Shown one piece after another: positions 6,076 through 48,763 of a DNA stretch of 64,000 bases. The notes below the pieces were generated by a model. The model saw only the letters and a program-made list of their open reading frames with translations. It was not told the origin of the DNA and searched no databases. The DNA is from Aerococcus sp. Its GTDB lineage: Bacteria; Bacillota; Bacilli; Lactobacillales; Aerococcaceae. Each line of letters opens with the position of its first letter. Within the stretch, counting starts at the first letter, position 1. The position numbers were made by a program, and so were the translations under genes. Location: positions 1-64,000 of the forward strand of contig JAUMZL010000002.1 in the NCBI GenBank assembly GCA_030528155.1. The letters are read 5' to 3'.

Positions 6076-6104
6076 ATATTAGTCTTTTTTGCCTCGAATT
6101 GCAA
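6076..6104 (-). promoter_or_regulatory. Promoter of trkA-trkH copy 2
   Basis: Minus strand TTGCAA, 17-base spacer, TAATAT, followed by ATCAC as in the promoter of copy 1. Confidence 0.75.
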
Positions 6105-6137
6105 CCCCAGATCCCTGATTTGTGGATATATCCGCTT

Positions 6138-6185
6138 CCAAAAAACAAAAAAGGAAGCCCCCTTTCCTTAGAAAAGAACTTCCTT
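6138..6185 (-). terminator. Terminator of rpoB-rpoC
   Basis: Minus strand AAGGAAG, a long partly paired loop, CTTCCTT, then TTTTGTTTTTTGG. It is 30 to 80 bases beyond the rpoC stop. Confidence 0.8.
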
Positions 6186-6216
6186 ACTTATAATGCTACC
6201 TGTTATCTACTAGGAA

Positions 6217-9200
6217 TTAAGGCATTCCGTGGTATTCAGGCATTGGTTTTTGTTTAGCTTCATTTTCTGCTTGGGCTTGTTCAATCGCCTCTTCCACGGT
6301 CACCGGATTTTCAGGATCGACTTCCATTAGTTCTTCTGCTTCAGGAATGATCCCTAATTTCTTCGGTTCCATGTTGCGGTAACGACGCATCCCGGTTCCG
6401 GCTGGGATGATCTTACCGATGATGACATTCTCTTTCAAACCGAGCAATTCATCACGTTTACCTTCAATAGAGGCATCGGTCAATACCTTCGTCGTTTCTT
6501 GGAAGGAGGCAGCAGAGAGGAAGCTGTTGGTTTCCAATGCGGCCTTGGTGATTCCCAAGAGTTCTGGACGAGCGGTTGCAGGAATTTGGCCAGTCTTCAC
6601 CATTTCGCGGTTAGCGTCTGTGAAGTCGCCGATATCCATCAATTTACCTGGCAACAAGCCGGAGTCCCCTGGGTCGAGGATACGGACTTTGCGTACCATC
6701 TGACGCAGCATAACTTCCACGTGCTTGTCGTTGATATCTACCCCTTGCAAACGGTAAACACGTTGGATTTCAGAGAGCATGTAGGTTTCAGCCGTCAAAG
6801 CATCCGTAATCCTCAGTAATTCTTTTGGATCCACGGACCCTTCTGTTAATTGATCCCCACGTTTCACGAAATCGCCCTCTGCCACCTTCATACGGGAGGT
6901 ATAAGGTACTTTGTATTCGCGTTCGTCGGTTTGGCCTTTCACGGTAACGGTCTTCTTACGGTTATCTTCTTCAATCGTAATGTCGACCACTTCCCCGGTC
7001 ACTTCGGTAATGACCGCTTGCCCTTTAGGATGACGTGCTTCCACAATTTCTTGAACACGTGGGAGCCCCTGAGTAATGTCGTCCCCGGCAACCCCACCGG
7101 TATGGAAGGTACGCATCGTTAACTGGGTACCAGGTTCACCGATTGATTGAGCGGCCACGATCCCAACTGCTTCGCCAACTTCCACTTCGCCGTTCGTTGC
7201 TAAGTCGGAGCCGTAGCAGTACTTGCAGACACCATGACGCGTCTTGCAGGTGAAAGCAGAACGAATCGTTACAGTTTCAATGCCTGCGTCTTCAATCTTA
7301 TGAGCCACTTCGGCACTGATCAATTGATTATGTTTAGCGAGTACTTCGCCGGTATTTGGATCGCGAACTTCCTTCATGCAATAGCGACCGGTCAAGCGTT
7401 CCGAGAGGGTTTCAACCATTTCATTGCCGTTCTTGATGGCAGAGATTTCCAACCCACGATCGGTGCCACAGTCCGTTTCACGAATGATGACGTCCTGAGC
7501 CACATCTACCAGACGACGGGTGAGGTAACCGGAGTCAGCGGTCTTCAGCGCCGTATCAGTCATTCCTTTACGTGCCCCGTGCGTTGAGATAAACATTTCC
7601 TGAACGGAGAGCCCTTCACGGAAGTTCGAGGTAACTGGCAATTCGATGATCTTACCATTCGGACCAGCCATCAATCCACGCATCCCCGCTAACTGGGTAA
7701 AGTTGGAGATGTTACCACGAGCCCCAGAATTCATCATGATGAAAAATGGGTTATCCGATGCCAAGGAAGTCTTCAAGGCGTCCTCGATTTGGTCCTTCAC
7801 ACCATTCCAGGTAGTAATCACCTGTTCATAACGTTCATCTTCGGTAATTAACCCGCGACGGTATTGCTTTGTGATGTTGTCCACGCGTTTGTGGCCTTGT
7901 TCAACGAAATCATCTTTCGCATCCAAAACGGTGATATCCGCAATACCTACTGTGATCCCGGACTTGGTGGAATATTGGTACCCCAATGCTTTCAGGCGGT
8001 CGAGGAACACGGAGGTATCGGTGACGCGGTATTTCTTGAAGACCGCTGCAATGATATCTTCCAAGTAACCTTTCTTGAATGGTGCGGTGGTTTCCAACTG
8101 GCTGATGAATGCATTCACGTCGCCACCTGGTTCCATGAAGAAACAATCAGGGGTTTGTTCATTCAAGTTGTAATCGGTGGGTTCATTAATGAATGGGAAA
8201 TTATCCGGCATAATCTCGTTGAAGAAAAGTTTCCCAATCGAGGTCACCATCAATTTTCCGCGTTGGTCTTTGGTCCAAGCGTAACGTGGCATGTCGTCGG
8301 TATTGATCACGACACGCGTATGCAGTTGAACAGCGTGGTTTGCGTAGGCAATGTGCGCTTCATTCACAGAGCTGATGGCCATGCCTTCGCCGTTCATGCC
8401 CGCTTGTTCCATGGTGAGGTAGTAGTTCCCGAGTACCATGTCCTGGGATGGAGTAACAACTGGTTGCCCATCTTTAGGGTTCAAGATGTGGCTCGCTGCC
8501 AGCATCAAAATCCGTGCTTCCGCTTGGGCTTCTTCACTCAATGGCAAGTGAACCGCCATCTGGTCCCCATCGAAGTCGGCGTTGTACGCTTCGCAAGCCA
8601 ATGGATGCAGACGGATCGCTTTCCCTTCAACCAAGATTGGTTCAAAAGCCTGAATCCCCAAACGGTGCAAGGTCGGTGCGCGGTTCAAGAGAACAGGATG
8701 TTCACGCATGATTGAGCCGAGTGGTTCCCAAACTTCATCATCGTGACGTTCGATCATGCGTTTGGCATGTTTCGCATTGGTCGCAATTTCGCGATCTACC
8801 AATTCACGAATGAGGAATGGTTTGAAGAGCTCAAGTGCCATGCCTTTTGGTAACCCACATTGATAGAATTTCAAGTAAGGACCGATGGCAATAACGGAAC
8901 GGCCGGAGTAGTCCACACGTTTACCGAGCAAGTTCTGACGGAAACGTCCTTGTTTCCCTTTCAACATGTGTGAGAGAGATTTCAATGGACGGTTACCAGA
9001 CCCGGCAACTGGACGGCCACGGCGACCATTATCGATCAAAGCGTCAACGGCTTCTTGCAGCATCCGTTTTTCATTTTGAACGATGATGTTTGGTGCATTC
9101 AAATCGAGCAAACGTTTCAAGCGGTTGTTACGGTTGATCACACGGCGGTAGAGGTCGTTCAAGTCACTCGTTGCAAAACGGCCCCCATCGAGCTGTACCA

Positions 9201-42062: not shown

Positions 42063-42542
42063 TTAGTCAACGGTGACTTCGTGACGTTCAAAGGGATCAG
42101 AGGAAAATTTTTGGTCTAAAATCAATTTTGCCCATTCCTGTGCGCCAAAGAGGGAGTGATCGCGGTAATTCCCGCAACTCTTGCGCTCGGTACCTTGGAC
42201 ATCTTCCCATTGACTATTAACAATGGCCTGCAAGACTTTGGTGAAGGCTACAGCGACATCTTCTGTTGTTGGTTCACCCCAGGTTGATAGATAAAAACCC
42301 GTCCGGCAACCCATGGGTGAGAGGTCGATCACATTATCCAAATAATCGCGCACATAGCCAGCAGAGAGATGCTCAATCGTATGCAGCGCTGCTGTTGGAA
42401 TAGCCGCCTCGTTGGGTTGCGTCAAACGCACATCAAATTTAGACACCACATCGCCTTTAGGGCCAGTGGTCTGCCCCGCCAAACGAACATAGGGAGCAAT
42501 CACTTTATCATGATCTAGCGTGAAACTTTCTACTTTTGCCAT
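42063..42542 (-). CDS. luxS: S-ribosylhomocysteine lyase
   Basis: Splits S-ribosylhomocysteine to homocysteine and the autoinducer-2 precursor, part of the activated methyl cycle. The 159-residue protein has the metal-binding HTIEH near residue 54, the catalytic Cys in [10 protein letters not shown] and the third metal ligand Cys in SCGNY. ATG at 42542 with AAAGGA about 8 bases upstream. It is the second gene after a small protein gene. Confidence 0.96.
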
Positions 42543-42887: not shown

Positions 42888-45800
42888 CTAATCCATTGCT
42901 TTCACTTTCTCTTCAATAAAAGCAATTTCATCCTCAACAAGTCCATATTTTGTATAGAGTTGTTGATCTATTTCAGATATTGATTTAGTCCAATCAATAT
43001 CTGAGTCTTCGCTAAAATCCTGTAACGGAATAAATTGAAACTTGTCTTTTGACAAGTTTATAGAGGTTACCGACTGCAACAGCAGGTTTCTATAGAACTT
43101 TGTCTTCATGTAGTTCCAGTATGACTGTACTTTATTTTCATCGGTGTCTGAATATATAACAAGATATGAATCAGTGACAACTGACTGCGGAGGGACGACA
43201 AAATTACTTGAAATTATTCGATATTGACCGTTCTTATCAGGTTCATTTGCATGCTCTGAAGTTACTTTACTAATGCATAATTTATACATATTCACTAGTT
43301 CATTGCCAGATTTTACCTCGCTATGCTTTACTCTACCTATTCCGGCACTTGAAATTAAAGTAATATCGCCATCTGAGCTTCCCCTGTCTTTTGATGAAAA
43401 ACCAAATGGATTACGGGGATAAACGAAATCACTAACAGTAGCTACGTTACCTATTTTATGGATAATACTTACTGCTTCATTGTATCTAACAAATGTATCA
43501 AACTCATTCATCTTTCGCCTTGAAGTGGTAGTACGACCATCATGAATATTCGTAAATTTCACAGTTCCATGATAATCCTTATCAATTATAAAGTAGTTCA
43601 CCCCACCAGCAATTGAGGTGTTAGGAAATAATTCTTTTGCATTATCGTAATCTACCATCACTTTAATTGAATCATTATTAAGCATATAATCACGAAATTT
43701 GTCTAATCCTTTACCGCCAGCAAACCATTTAGAAGGCGTGATGAGAGAAATATATCTGCTCGATAACCTATCAGAAAGTTGAATAAACTTATTATACACA
43801 GGGGTAGCACTCGAACCAGATCCCCCATCATTTTCCTGATAAGGAGGATTCCCAACTACTACATCAAATTTCATTGCCTTAAACCCTTTCTGGATCTCTT
43901 TTTCGACGTTGCGAATATTTTTTCTGATTTTATTAACCAGATCTGGAATGAATAGAATATTTGTATCCCAATCTTTATAACCAGCTAAAGTTCTCTGAGT
44001 AATCGTTTTAGCCATTGGAGTTTTTGCGAGCACATAAATATTGTTCTTCAACACGTTTTGTATGATATTCTCTTCATCAATTTGTGTGATTTTGCCCACG
44101 CTATTGTCAATAAACTTCATCTGTTGTTTAAAAAAGAAGCTGGCCGCGCAAAATAACGGATACAGTCCTGTTTTAGAATTAATTTCCAGAATTTTTCTAT
44201 CATCACGGAAAACTATTCCAGTGTCTTCTTGTTTCACCCAATGAAGGGCCAGTGTTCCATCGACGGAGCTATCTGTAAAATCATCATTATAATAAGATAA
44301 GCCACCAATTGTTGAAGCTAGTTGCATATTTACCACACGCCAAGGGGTAAGAACTGTTTCTTTATCTGGATTTTTGAATGTCCCATGTAAGAGTGCAATC
44401 TGTTCTACACGCTCAGTATATGATAAGTTATCGTACGATTTTGCTCTTGTTCTAATGATTCGTCCAGCTTCAATAAAGACTTCAGAATCATAATATTTAG
44501 CCTGCTCCCTAAACATTTCTTTGGTCACGCCAGCTGGCATGAATTCTTCCCAGGAATCATCATCAACTTCATTCACGAATGTTTCAACATCGATGTCTTT
44601 TGAAATATCAACTTCCATTCCAAAGATCATTAATGGGATGCGAATTGAGATCCCACGCAAAATAGAAATAGCATTACGCCGTTCTTTCTTCGCTTGATTT
44701 TGTTTATTGATTGCCTCTTGTTCTTCAGGCGTACGTTGACGCTTTGATTTTTTCTTAGCTTTTTCGGCCATTTCGTATTCTTCATCAGTCAGTCCTTGAT
44801 TGTTAACCTTAACTGCTTTGGTACCTTTAGCTGCACCCGTCTTACCAATAATTCCTCTGAGCTTCTCAAAGAGCTCAGCAGCTTGCGGATCAATTGTTAA
44901 TAAAGCATCGGAATACAGACTATCATCATCAAATCCTGAACGAACAGCTCTTTCAGCATAAACTTTCTTAAGCTGTGTCAACATGCGATCCACGCTAAAT
45001 GTCCTCATTCCGTTTCCATCCATACCGATAATTGGCAAGAAATTAAGCATATTTGCCATCTTTTGTTTTTGCTCTGGAGTATTGCGCTTTCCTACTCCTG
45101 AGTTAACAGCAGCTGATTCAGCCATGACAGTTAAAGCACGATCAGGTGCGAAATCAAAAATGTAAGCATTTTTCTTTTGCCCTTGTACTGCATTTGAATA
45201 TGGTGTTTGAGCTCTAAAGGCTGCTTGGAGATAGCTCATTGCAGAATTGGTGTTGTTTAAAAACATAACTGCAGTCCATTCTTTGACGTTTACCCCCGTG
45301 GTTAATTTACGAACTGATAATGTGATGGTTTTAGTCTCCCACGGCTTATCACTAATCGCACTGCGAACGCGTCCTAAATCAGGGTCATCTTTACTCGTGA
45401 TTTCCTTGTCATCGTTATCGACTACATTAATTATTTTGTATTCTTTACCGAAAACCGGATGCTTGTCCATCAGATCTTTCATGGCTTTTGCTTCTGCAAT
45501 CCCCGGCAACAACCAGAGAGAATGCCTTAACTCATTTCTAAATTTTTCCGTCGAATATGGATAATTGGTCGCTGATTGTTTTGTAATTTGATTCAAGAAA
45601 TTATTAACATCAATTTCATGTTTAAAAGATCCATCCTCTTTTACACGAAAGAACTCTTTAAAATTAAATGCCTTGCTTTCATCGGCATATTTTTCTTTAT
45701 TGTCCATTTCAAAAGTAAACATGTTGACTTTTGGCAATGTATCATACGGATTTGGCTCATCTGGTTTTTCTGTTGACCAACGTAATTTAGCCTTTTGTTC

Positions 45801-46436
45801 CATGACATAGTCCCAAGTATAAACTTGGTCCTCTTCGTATTGCTCGAGTAAGTTAAACGGCGTACCAGACAATTCAAGGACTTTGGTATTTTTCTTTTTA
45901 ATGGCCTTTTCAACATTTTTTGCCAATTCAGTTTGTGTTCCCTCATGAGCTTCATCGAAGACAATCAAATCCCAGTCAGTGCTGAATACAAGCTCATTTT
46001 TCTTGCCCTGTTTGCCTCCAACTTGTGATGATCCGCGTAGGTCTTGAATACTAGCAAAATAAACAAATTTTCCACCGCCCTCAGTTAAGCTTTCAATGCT
46101 TTCATGCTTCTTAGAGCCGTATCGATAGCCAGCTTCTTTCATTTCTAGTTTTGAAAAATCTTCAAACCAAGAATCTGCTACGACTGGGCGGTGCGTTAGA
46201 ATCAACACAGAATGATAACTTTCTTCTTTGACCAATTGATAAGTTGATAGGGTTTTGCCAAAACGCATCTTAGCATTCCAAAGCATACGATCTTTCTTTT
46301 TAAAGACTATCTTTGTCTGTGCAACAGCAGCTTTTTGTTCTGGACGAAGAGTTATTTTTCTCTTGTCAATGACAGGGCCATCAATTACTTCACGATTTTC
46401 TTTAACTGCAGCAATTGCTTCTTTAGCTACATCCAA
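42888..46436 (-). CDS. Helicase-methyltransferase part of a restriction-modification protein (downstream of an in-frame TGA)
   Basis: A 1182-residue reading frame joining an SF2 helicase to an Eco57I-type adenine methyltransferase. Helicase motifs: MRFGKT (57-62), DEAH (161-164), SGTPF (190-194), TTGVNV (379-383) and QAAFRAQ (404-410). A coiled, Lys-rich linker (about 550-590) leads to the methylase: LTPWRVVNMQL (about 696), EINSKTGLYP (motif I-like, about 751) and NPPY (863-866); the last 300 residues are probably target recognition. It begins with TTG in the same frame as the upstream nuclease gene, separated by TGA plus three codons, and has only a weak ribosome binding site. It is best read as the C-terminal part of one interrupted protein. 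The region is visibly AT-richer than its surroundings. Confidence 0.85.
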   Translation of the reverse strand: MDVAKEAIAAVKENREVIDGPVIDKRKITLRPEQKAAVAQTKIVFKKKDRMLWNAKMRFGKTLSTYQLVKEESYHSVLILTHRPVVADSWFEDFSKLEMKEAGYRYGSKKHESIESLTEGGGKFVYFASIQDLRGSSQVGGKQGKKNELVFSTDWDLIVFDEAHEGTQTELAKNVEKAIKKKNTKVLELSGTPFNLLEQYEEDQVYTWDYVMEQKAKLRWSTEKPDEPNPYDTLPKVNMFTFEMDNKEKYADESKAFNFKEFFRVKEDGSFKHEIDVNNFLNQITKQSATNYPYSTEKFRNELRHSLWLLPGIAEAKAMKDLMDKHPVFGKEYKIINVVDNDDKEITSKDDPDLGRVRSAISDKPWETKTITLSVRKLTTGVNVKEWTAVMFLNNTNSAMSYLQAAFRAQTPYSNAVQGQKKNAYIFDFAPDRALTVMAESAAVNSGVGKRNTPEQKQKMANMLNFLPIIGMDGNGMRTFSVDRMLTQLKKVYAERAVRSGFDDDSLYSDALLTIDPQAAELFEKLRGIIGKTGAAKGTKAVKVNNQGLTDEEYEMAEKAKKKSKRQRTPEEQEAINKQNQAKKERRNAISILRGISIRIPLMIFGMEVDISKDIDVETFVNEVDDDSWEEFMPAGVTKEMFREQAKYYDSEVFIEAGRIIRTRAKSYDNLSYTERVEQIALLHGTFKNPDKETVLTPWRVVNMQLASTIGGLSYYNDDFTDSSVDGTLALHWVKQEDTGIVFRDDRKILEINSKTGLYPLFCAASFFFKQQMKFIDNSVGKITQIDEENIIQNVLKNNIYVLAKTPMAKTITQRTLAGYKDWDTNILFIPDLVNKIRKNIRNVEKEIQKGFKAMKFDVVVGNPPYQENDGGSGSSATPVYNKFIQLSDRLSSRYISLITPSKWFAGGKGLDKFRDYMLNNDSIKVMVDYDNAKELFPNTSIAGGVNYFIIDKDYHGTVKFTNIHDGRTTTSRRKMNEFDTFVRYNEAVSIIHKIGNVATVSDFVYPRNPFGFSSKDRGSSDGDITLISSAGIGRVKHSEVKSGNELVNMYKLCISKVTSEHANEPDKNGQYRIISSNFVVPPQSVVTDSYLVIYSDTDENKVQSYWNYMKTKFYRNLLLQSVTSINLSKDKFQFIPLQDFSEDSDIDWTKSISEIDQQLYTKYGLVEDEIAFIEEKVKAMD

Positions 46437-46445
46437 AGTGACTTG

Positions 46446-47126
46446 TCACCACTCGTTTCCCTCAACATCTTCATTCTTTTTAAAGTTTGAGCGTCTCAGA
46501 ACTTCGTGAACATCCTTGTCACCAAACCATGGATTCAACTTATCTTGCGGTCTATATGCAAGTTCTGCCCAATCGATTGTAAACGGCACGCCTGATGTCG
46601 TCATATAAGATCTAATACGCATATTGGCTTGACTTCTGAGGAATTCACTATTAGCCTGGAAGTCTAGCGGATTAGAACTATTATCCGCTGTCGTTTCACC
46701 AATTTTTTCAGAACCGGCATAAACATCCCAGTTACCAGATGCGTTATCTGCTGTTTGAATATAGATCATTTTACGCTCGTTAGGCTGATAAATACTCTCT
46801 GAAATTGGATTCTCAAATTCATTATTTACAGGTTGACCAGCATTAATCGCAATTTGTTTCAAGGCCTGATAAATTACTCGCAATCGAATCAAAGCATCTT
46901 CTTGCTCATTTCCTGTTGAGTATTTCATAGTAGGTTCTTTAAGGAGATTAGAATTAAAGATGGCATTTTCAAACAAATCAGCTTGTTCGATTACTTTAGC
47001 AAAATCTCCTTGTACATAGAAGTCTTCAACATACTTAGCTCGATCGTAATACTGAACTTTCAAATCCCAATCTAGTTTTAAAAATTCAAAATTTGTTGTA
47101 TCTGGTCTAGTGGCAATAGCACTCAT
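46446..47126 (-). CDS. GIY-YIG/T5orf172-like nuclease part of the same restriction-modification protein
   Basis: A 226-residue frame ending in TGA. The first 100 residues (NFEFLKLDW..., helical) resemble the N-terminal region of HsdR-like proteins. Residues 120-212 look like a T5orf172/GIY-YIG nuclease: MIYIQT (120-125), EKIGETT (140-146), an Arg-rich helix and DKDVHEVL (203-210). The frame continues after TGA as Q-V-T-L-D-V-A-K into the helicase, so relatives are expected to be a single polypeptide of about 1410 residues. TGG-TGA-CAA is also a context known to favour readthrough. ATG at 47126 has AAAGGGG 10 bases upstream and follows the methylase-like gene by two bases. Confidence 0.7.
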   Translation of the reverse strand: MSAIATRPDTTNFEFLKLDWDLKVQYYDRAKYVEDFYVQGDFAKVIEQADLFENAIFNSNLLKEPTMKYSTGNEQEDALIRLRVIYQALKQIAINAGQPVNNEFENPISESIYQPNERKMIYIQTADNASGNWDVYAGSEKIGETTADNSSNPLDFQANSEFLRSQANMRIRSYMTTSGVPFTIDWAELAYRPQDKLNPWFGDKDVHEVLRRSNFKKNEDVEGNEW

Positions 47127-47128
47127 CT

Positions 47129-48160
47129 TTATTTGACCCCTTTATCAAAATACTCCATTTTATTTGTTTCCCAATTCATCCATTTGACGCGTTTTCCTGG
47201 TTTAATGATCCATTCTTCAGCTGGTTTTTTATCATCAAAATCAAATAATGACAGCTGATAGCTCTCGACTTTTTCTCGCTTCTCTGAAAGTGGGATAATA
47301 TATTTCAAGCCATCCATTTGGAAAATATTATAGCTAATGATTTCAGCAATATCTTTAAACAAGCCATATAACGGTTCCTCTAACCATTTTGCAAAATAAT
47401 AATCACGGTAGGTATACAGAAGGTTTTCCCTTGCTAGTAAGAGCGAGTCCCCACTCCACTCAAAACCATAACTCGATTTATAGGCTTCTTCGACTAAGCG
47501 TTGCCATTCCGCCTTGTCTTCAACCTCAGCATTGATTCGCTTCAACTTGCGGTCAACAAAGCCAACACGCTCGTCAAGTGGAACAATCTTTCCCGTTTCC
47601 ATGTCATAGCGTGTAGCCATGTATGGGGCTTCCCCACAGGTAATTTCAAGCCATCTGCGTTTAACATAGGTTTCTATCTCGTCGTTTTGATAGTCCTTGT
47701 CCACTTCATCATTTTGCTTCTTTACAATCCAAGTAGGGGTGAATACCTCGGCCTTTGATTTTGTTCGTTCTTTTTGCAGTTCACGCGATTTCAGCGCACG
47801 CGGCATGATGATCTGTCCCATTTTCCCCGTTACTAGACTTGGGAGCATTGGGGCCGTAACTGCATACGATTTTTGACCATACTGCAAATAATTTTCATTG
47901 GCCCAAATGATATTTTTTGATTTCTTAGATGTAGATGTCGTTCTGTCAATGAGGAGAATATCTAAAATTGCAGGCATCGTTTCCCGAATCTTATTTTCAA
48001 GAATATCTGTTGAACTGATATCTTCTATAGATTCCTCAATTTCTTTTTTGTTCTCATCTATTTTTTCTTCAAATAACAAATAACTCCCCCCATTCGTGAT
48101 TCTATTTTTGATCATTTCACCAATATCAACGCCTAAAGCCAGATATATTTTAACCATCAC
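47129..48160 (-). CDS. Methylase-like restriction endonuclease subunit M
   Basis: First gene of the restriction-modification-like operon, 343 residues. It carries AEVFTPTWIV (137-146), a methylase motif X-like start, and LEITCGEAPY (171-180), which occupies the place of the SAM-binding motif I, then YGFEWSGDSLLLARENLLYTY. It lacks the catalytic NPPY motif, which is present in the large partner, and instead has NIFQMDGLK near residue 278. I recognise the family (subunit M beside helicase-Eco57I methylase genes) but its exact task is not established. The GTG/ATG starts at 48160/48157 lack a good binding site; family resemblance begins near residue 62, so the true start may be internal. Confidence 0.75.
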   Translation of the reverse strand: MMVKIYLALGVDIGEMIKNRITNGGSYLLFEEKIDENKKEIEESIEDISSTDILENKIRETMPAILDILLIDRTTSTSKKSKNIIWANENYLQYGQKSYAVTAPMLPSLVTGKMGQIIMPRALKSRELQKERTKSKAEVFTPTWIVKKQNDEVDKDYQNDEIETYVKRRWLEITCGEAPYMATRYDMETGKIVPLDERVGFVDRKLKRINAEVEDKAEWQRLVEEAYKSSYGFEWSGDSLLLARENLLYTYRDYYFAKWLEEPLYGLFKDIAEIISYNIFQMDGLKYIIPLSEKREKVESYQLSLFDFDDKKPAEEWIIKPGKRVKWMNWETNKMEYFDKGVK

Positions 48161-48310: not shown

Positions 48311-48763
48311 TTATTCCTCCGTTGTACGCACCTCTGCAAAGGTAAATGCGATCACCCGTTCGACATCGCGAGGGTTGAGTTCAACGGCTTTGCCGACTTC
48401 TCCCGCACTGAAGCTGACCTGATCGTAATTTAACATGGAGTCATCAAATACCGTCACAAAGGTTTTCTTCATGCCGATCGGTGAACAGCCACCGTGCACA
48501 TAACCAGTCAATGGTAAGAGATCCTTTTGTTTCAACATATGGATGTTCTTCTCAGCGACGGTCTTGGCGGCTTTCTTTAAATCGAGCTCCGCGTGAGCTG
48601 GGACAACGAAGACGTAATGGTCACCTGATTTGCCAGTGGTGACCAGCGTTTTATAGTTGTGGTAGCGATCCATATCGCTCATTTCTTTCCAGAGATGTGG
48701 AATGTAGTCCACGTCATGTTGTTCGAGCAGACGCATGACATTGGTTTTCTTGTTCTTTGCCAT
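48311..48763 (-). CDS. ybaK: YbaK/EbsC-type Cys-tRNA(Pro) deacylase
   Basis: Trans-editing enzyme removing cysteine wrongly attached to tRNA-Pro. The 150-residue protein has the catalytic-Lys segment YKTLVTTG near residue 37, VVPAHAELDLKKAAK and LTGYVHGGCSPIGMKK. Compared with family members as I know them, the stretch before KTLV (residues 20-36) is shortened and reads MSDMDRYHN, so the N-terminal part of the domain may be altered. ATG at 48763 with GGGAGG 7 bases upstream. It follows rho. Confidence 0.8.
   Translation of the reverse strand: MAKNKKTNVMRLLEQHDVDYIPHLWKEMSDMDRYHNYKTLVTTGKSGDHYVFVVPAHAELDLKKAAKTVAEKNIHMLKQKDLLPLTGYVHGGCSPIGMKKTFVTVFDDSMLNYDQVSFSAGEVGKAVELNPRDVERVIAFTFAEVRTTEE

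Follow-up and report, generated by a model that had tools for sequence, protein, structure and literature searches.

A recent in-frame stop in an apparently acquired restriction-modification cassette of Aerococcus sp. as a probable case of early gene loss

Type IIG restriction enzymes, as modelled in PADLOC (REase_MTase_IIG), carry methyltransferase and restriction parts in one polypeptide. The same is true of a gene on the minus strand, at 47126..42888, of a 64,000-nucleotide (nt) stretch of Aerococcus sp. DNA (positions 1 to 64,000 of contig JAUMZL010000002.1, assembly GCA_030528155.1; the whole stretch is hereafter the window). Unlike the type IIG enzymes, it adds a ResIII helicase and a separate methyltransferase-like partner, and its nuclease part is T5orf172-like. 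The large gene of this locus is interrupted by an in-frame TGA. We favor the reading that the TGA is a recent nonsense mutation in an acquired and already damaged restriction-modification cassette, an event ordinary in kind, to which we assign a probability of about 0.72.

The closest described copies are an Eco57I-domain protein encoded on an Enterococcus faecium plasmid (WP_113813887.1 on NZ_CP065774.1; L024) and a copy in Weissella sagaensis X0750 (L025). Both genes match the window's in length (4239 nt), their products are each about 91% identical to its protein, and both share with the window the same partner gene directly upstream and the same domain order. However, the two copies are uninterrupted and have a complete helix-turn-helix (HTH) regulator frame upstream, whereas the window has a stop and a regulator remnant. 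In L024, a DUF262/GmrSD_N gene at 7233-8477 lies directly downstream of the homologue, whereas none adjoins the window cassette. In L025, a short frame after the homologue is followed, within 6093-7843, by frames that look by eye like transposases, and the downstream gene there may be interrupted by an insertion. Two further comparisons bear on the interpretation. T5orf172/GIY-YIG proteins have a Y, KxG, R, EW pattern in common with the window's gene, and a homologue on another contig of the host genome (C33) scores over the cut-off of PF10544, but the window's own group falls below it. The selenoprotein genes GrdB and PrdB resemble the window's gene in having an in-frame TGA in a host with selenocysteine machinery, but the window lacks both a favorable hairpin like a bacterial selenocysteine insertion sequence (bSECIS) and a Cys-type column. 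A limited literature search, judged from titles and the openings of abstracts, found no paper devoted to the nuclease-helicase-methylase family of the window's gene.

The interrupted frame and the residue at its stop

Translation of the frame gives 226 residues (ending EGNEW), the TGA at 46448-46446, and then 1185 residues beginning QVTLDVAK. This TGA is the sole internal stop, the next being at 42890-42888, and its codon context is TGG-TGA-CAA. Re-translation of 47126..42888 reproduced the coordinates, flanking residues, and codon context of the original prediction exactly. The parts of the gene are as follows.

46446..47126, minus strand: open reading frame 5' of the stop, 226 amino acids (aa), with a helical N-terminal domain (about aa 1-112) and a T5orf172/GIY-YIG-like domain (aa 113-226) without its last helix; from translation and models of the intact W. 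sagaensis copy.
46446..46448, minus strand: in-frame TGA, in a column that is otherwise almost invariably aromatic (E-W-[FYW]); from translation and an alignment of relatives.
42888..46436, minus strand: open frame 3' of the stop, 1182 aa from TTG, with a ResIII helicase and an Eco57I-type methyltransferase; from PF04851, PF07669, and PADLOC.

The part after the stop matched the Eco57I methyltransferase family PF07669 at 106.8 bits (cut-off 25.3), the ResIII helicase family PF04851 at 58.2 bits (cut-off 22.5), and PADLOC REase_MTase_IIG at 1.7e-65, as well as type II methyltransferase models. The label GIY-YIG-like for the N-terminal part holds indirectly: the 226-aa fragment itself matched no Pfam family, whereas against PF10544 (T5orf172, cut-off 20) the W. 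sagaensis copy scored 14.1, another relative (L036) 19.5, and the C33 homologue 32 bits. A sequence search for matching solved structures returned none, and Foldseek searches with 300-aa and 140-aa models returned nothing at E<=0.001. Many relatives start close to the nuclease-like domain.

The stop had been placed in a linker, a position that confident models of the intact W. sagaensis copy rule out. In these models the stop column is aa 227, a helix is predicted beyond it at aa 231-242, and confidence stays high across aa 227 (block means >90), falling only past about aa 250. Hence, the stop would cut the nuclease-like domain ahead of its last helix, at the E-W-aromatic signature. As this domain is N-terminal, it is the helicase-methylase that would be lost first, unless translation restarts. 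This is the opposite of the suggestion that the nuclease is removed and the helicase-methylase spared, since the nuclease-like part is still translated, minus its last helix.

To define the residue that the stop replaces, we aligned relatives from several collections. Searches with the helicase-methylase part (E<=1e-100) found matches in 4/76 genomes of the family and 17/395 genomes of a sample of the order, the host counted in both; from a wider contig search, the best 80 of 146 confirmed stretches were used. Adding L002 and a locus from an E. faecium plasmid to these sets, and removing the host's own and four partial loci, left 98 related loci with a matching frame. Excluded before the count were the window itself (L001, L005), the second frame of the C33 cassette (L003, L004), and L006 and L007, which are weak partial matches (24 and 30% identity) from two genomes of the genus. 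The loci are not all independent: L012 and L026 score identically, as do L018 and L032, and each pair looks like one genome from two collections. The named relatives include Bacillota, Bacteroidota, and a few others.

A single frame runs through the junction in 96 of the 98 loci. The other two are uninformative, L023 being a fragment whose match starts well past the junction and L086 having a frame that starts at a contig end right at the junction. A naturally split gene is thus rejected, as no relative, among those looked at for this very pattern, was seen split here. At the stop column, where the original prediction had envisaged Trp or Phe, the 97 aligned relatives have 63 F, 28 Y, 3 W, 1 L, 1 C, and 1 V, so that 94/97 are aromatic (L002 aligned two residues off, on EWFFY). 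The three nearest, L024, L025, and L008, all have Trp, encoded by TGG. None of the 97 has a stop in the column; we saw one in the window copy alone.

Some copies of the large gene end early elsewhere. Such frames were found in 9/98 loci, some at or near contig ends. L008, L082, and L091 have a frame end or change away from the junction, and in L091 the change lies after it. The host genome holds a second cassette of the same kind (L105, G000:C33, 5469-14953), whose partner protein is 82.6% identical to that of the window. It has a T5orf172-helicase of 1097 aa whose end is overlapped by a distinct methyltransferase frame of 344 aa, and this early frame end is probably a natural split. The cassette adjoins HerA-like and SIR2-like genes, which resemble a defense pair. 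Eight plasmid records matched, all from E. faecium and covering 99% of the query; L024 is one of them. Three stretches of viral contigs matched a search pattern and none encoded a relative, and no near DNA matches were found in phages.

Constraint and the age of the stop

Two measures address how long the stop has been in place. First, the ratio of nonsynonymous to synonymous substitution rates (dN/dS) against L024 is 0.062 before the stop, 0.046 for aa 228-790, and 0.041 for aa 790-1230. Second, residue changes on the window lineage, polarized by L008, number 6/226 before the stop and 31/752 after it (up to aa 980; Fisher p 0.43). Constraint before the stop has therefore been about as strong as after it, and the stop is therefore recent. 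From dN/dS and the change counts, a rough estimate suggests that no more than about a tenth of the window lineage since the split passed without constraint. With the frame continuous in the relatives, TGG in the nearest three, and pre-stop constraint not clearly relaxed, the proposal of a single ancestral polypeptide with a recent change at a Trp codon stands.

Several observations weigh against a broken gene. Apart from the TGA, the frame of the large gene is undamaged. All eight conserved residues that were checked are present (8/8), and a working product made through restart or readthrough would show the same. dN/dS is slightly higher before the stop than after, a small and nominal excess. 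Finally, an error of sequencing or assembly at 46446 is conceivable, if improbable.

Restart, readthrough, error, and selenocysteine

The strongest alternative, although we consider it unlikely, is termination followed by reinitiation at a nearby TTG, which would yield two products, the 226-aa nuclease-like fragment and, as a protein of its own, a 1182-aa helicase-methylase that may have kept its ability to modify DNA.

46434..46436, minus strand: TTG, candidate restart site, 12 nt past the start of the TGA and preceded by a Shine-Dalgarno (SD)-like GGTGA overlapping the stop; from a scan for pairing with the anti-SD sequence; CTG in the two nearest relatives.

The replacement of this TTG by CTG in those two relatives speaks for reinitiation, as does the pairing of GGTGA with the anti-SD sequence, at -7.2 kcal/mol against -7.5 at the gene's native start; only 2/73 in-frame start-like codons of the gene, TTG 46436 included, score as well. 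In addition, the helicase match starts past TTG 46436, so the helicase would be whole. However, the SD-like stretch (there GGTGG) already reaches -6.6 in the two nearest relatives, so restart is not the reason it arose; TTG initiates weakly; and the continuous frames of the relatives offer no precedent for a split. More doubtful still is the stronger version, in which one change made two coupled proteins from a fused enzyme, a 226-aa nuclease-like fragment and a free, still DNA-modifying helicase-methylase. If true, a fused restriction enzyme would have become marking-only or subunit-assembled. A recently broken copy is the most likely explanation, ahead of such a new way of making two proteins.

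We hold it equally doubtful that low-level readthrough of the TGA by near-cognate tRNA-Trp yields a little full-length enzyme. Insertion of Trp would give back the residue that the nearest relatives have, the similar constraint before and after the stop agrees with readthrough, and UGA is the stop at which bacterial readthrough is most frequent, according to an extract of PMC5289835. Yet a recent origin accounts for the constraint by itself, and the absence of a stop from the column in all 97 relatives argues against readthrough and leads us to reject a conserved, programmed form of it. As to the next base, the original prediction held that a C after the TGA favors readthrough; the same extract reports more readthrough with a +4 C in yeast and, in E. 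coli, more misreading of UGA by tRNA-Trp with a +4 A, whereas the window has C. That extract also mentions slippage at UGA-C (PMC5289835). Moreover, readthrough would limit the dose of the helicase-methylase and not, as had been proposed, of the nuclease, the nuclease-like part being N-terminal. No tRNA-Trp gene is among the 19 tRNA matches of the draft genome.

Slightly less probable again is the sequencing or assembly error at 46446. In its favor, the host assembly is a draft in 38 contigs from the one genome of the host species examined, the frame has no other internal stop, and its N-terminal part has no clear decay. Against it, the change is a single substitution and not a homopolymer indel, and the truncated regulator independently points to loss within this cassette.

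Decoding of TGA 46448-46446 as selenocysteine we regard as close to excluded, because no favorable SECIS hairpin was found under published loop rules and the column is aromatic. The host does have the means: a search with a tRNA-Trp pattern matched a tRNA with anticodon TCA, that is, a tRNA-Sec (67 bits), SelB (359 bits) lies on the same contig, and so do TGA-interrupted genes like those for glycine reductase B (GrdB-like) and PrdB. The 55 nt that follow the TGA also form a structure of -11.0 kcal/mol whose loop lies within the permitted distance. The bSECIS rules, as given in an extract of PMC13188914, ask for a loop of 3-9 nt whose first or second base is G, at 16-37 nt from the UGA, a stem of 4-16 bp, and a minimum free energy of <= -7.5. 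The fold agrees with them in distance, stem, and energy but fails in loop size and G, its loop having 13 nt and opening with UA, and its stability does not exceed that of shuffled sequences. Among hairpins whose loop obeys the rules, the best comes to +3.0 kcal/mol, which is equalled or beaten at 766/1380 codon positions of the large gene. In each control gene (GrdB-like and PrdB-like), a 5-bp stem closes a 3-nt loop that begins with G, 18 nt past the UGA. These control hairpins are themselves weak, being matched at 153 and 209 of the 1380 positions, with about -6 kcal/mol in 45 nt; shuffled sequences do as well, and in longer stretches another fold is preferred. The stop column, aromatic in 94/97 relatives and Cys in 1/97, is a stronger argument against selenocysteine than the hairpin comparison. 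The loci of the selenocysteine machinery and of the presumed selenoproteins lie beyond the window on the same contig (G000 C14), at 100436, 104235-106091, 113687, and 123678-123770; the set comprises SelB, tRNA-Sec, a PrdB-like gene, and a glycine/sarcosine reductase B-like gene, in a host of the Lactobacillales with a genome of 1.67 Mb.

The cassette, its insertion site, and the meaning of the stop

Judged by its sequence, the locus is a two-gene restriction-modification cassette made of a methyltransferase-like subunit and a nuclease-like/helicase/methyltransferase polypeptide. We base this on the domains of the large gene, the methyltransferase match of the partner, and the recurrent place of the partner upstream. 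The remaining features are as follows.

47129..48160, minus strand: partner gene, type II methyltransferase-like subunit, 282 aa from ATG 47977 (as annotated in the E. faecium copy) or 343 aa from GTG 48160; from PADLOC MTase_II (1.6e-76) and its upstream position in relatives.
48092..48154, minus strand: HTH regulator remnant, about the last 20 codons, inner end approximate; from the complete frame in the E. faecium plasmid and W. sagaensis copies.
42063..42542, minus strand: luxS, one of the two chromosomal flanks of the cassette; from a family match.
48311..48763, minus strand: ybaK-like Cys-tRNA(Pro) deacylase gene, the opposite chromosomal flank; from a family match.

Relatives of the partner lie directly upstream of the large gene in 69/98 loci and elsewhere in the locus, beyond the gap limits, in 22; none was found in seven, three of which have no room upstream. 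Similarity to the E. faecium and W. sagaensis copies spans 48154 to 42889. In both copies a complete HTH frame precedes the partner gene, of which the window keeps only the last codons. A genome of the same genus (G008) has DUF1846, luxS, ybaK, and rho in the same order without a cassette, and its DNA aligns to the window up to 42743 and resumes from 48309. A single genome shows the empty site, G008 being the only one among 14 others of the genus to have ybaK within the examined luxS flanks. Most simply, the cassette would be an acquired insert that lost its regulator.

For the recent nonsense mutation, we suggest the following course. The cassette would have been acquired and inserted between ybaK and luxS on the host chromosome, and would have lost most of its regulator gene. 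Recently, a single substitution would have turned a conserved aromatic codon, where the nuclease-like domain ends, into a stop and so broken the large gene. The cell would now make mainly the 226-aa fragment, which lacks the last helix of the nuclease-like domain, and restriction would therefore be lost. Methylation would go as well, barring some restart of translation beyond the stop. As one polypeptide holds both the cutting and the marking functions, their joint loss should be harmless to the cell.

The locus is mainly a caution to annotators. Where a host has selenocysteine machinery, a TGA within a frame needs a selenocysteine test before it is called a pseudogene or a case of readthrough; here the same contig supplies the comparison genes for that test, which was negative. 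With its regulator truncated, a single nonsense change, and the remaining frame still open, the locus would be a clean case of the early loss of a mobile restriction-modification cassette.

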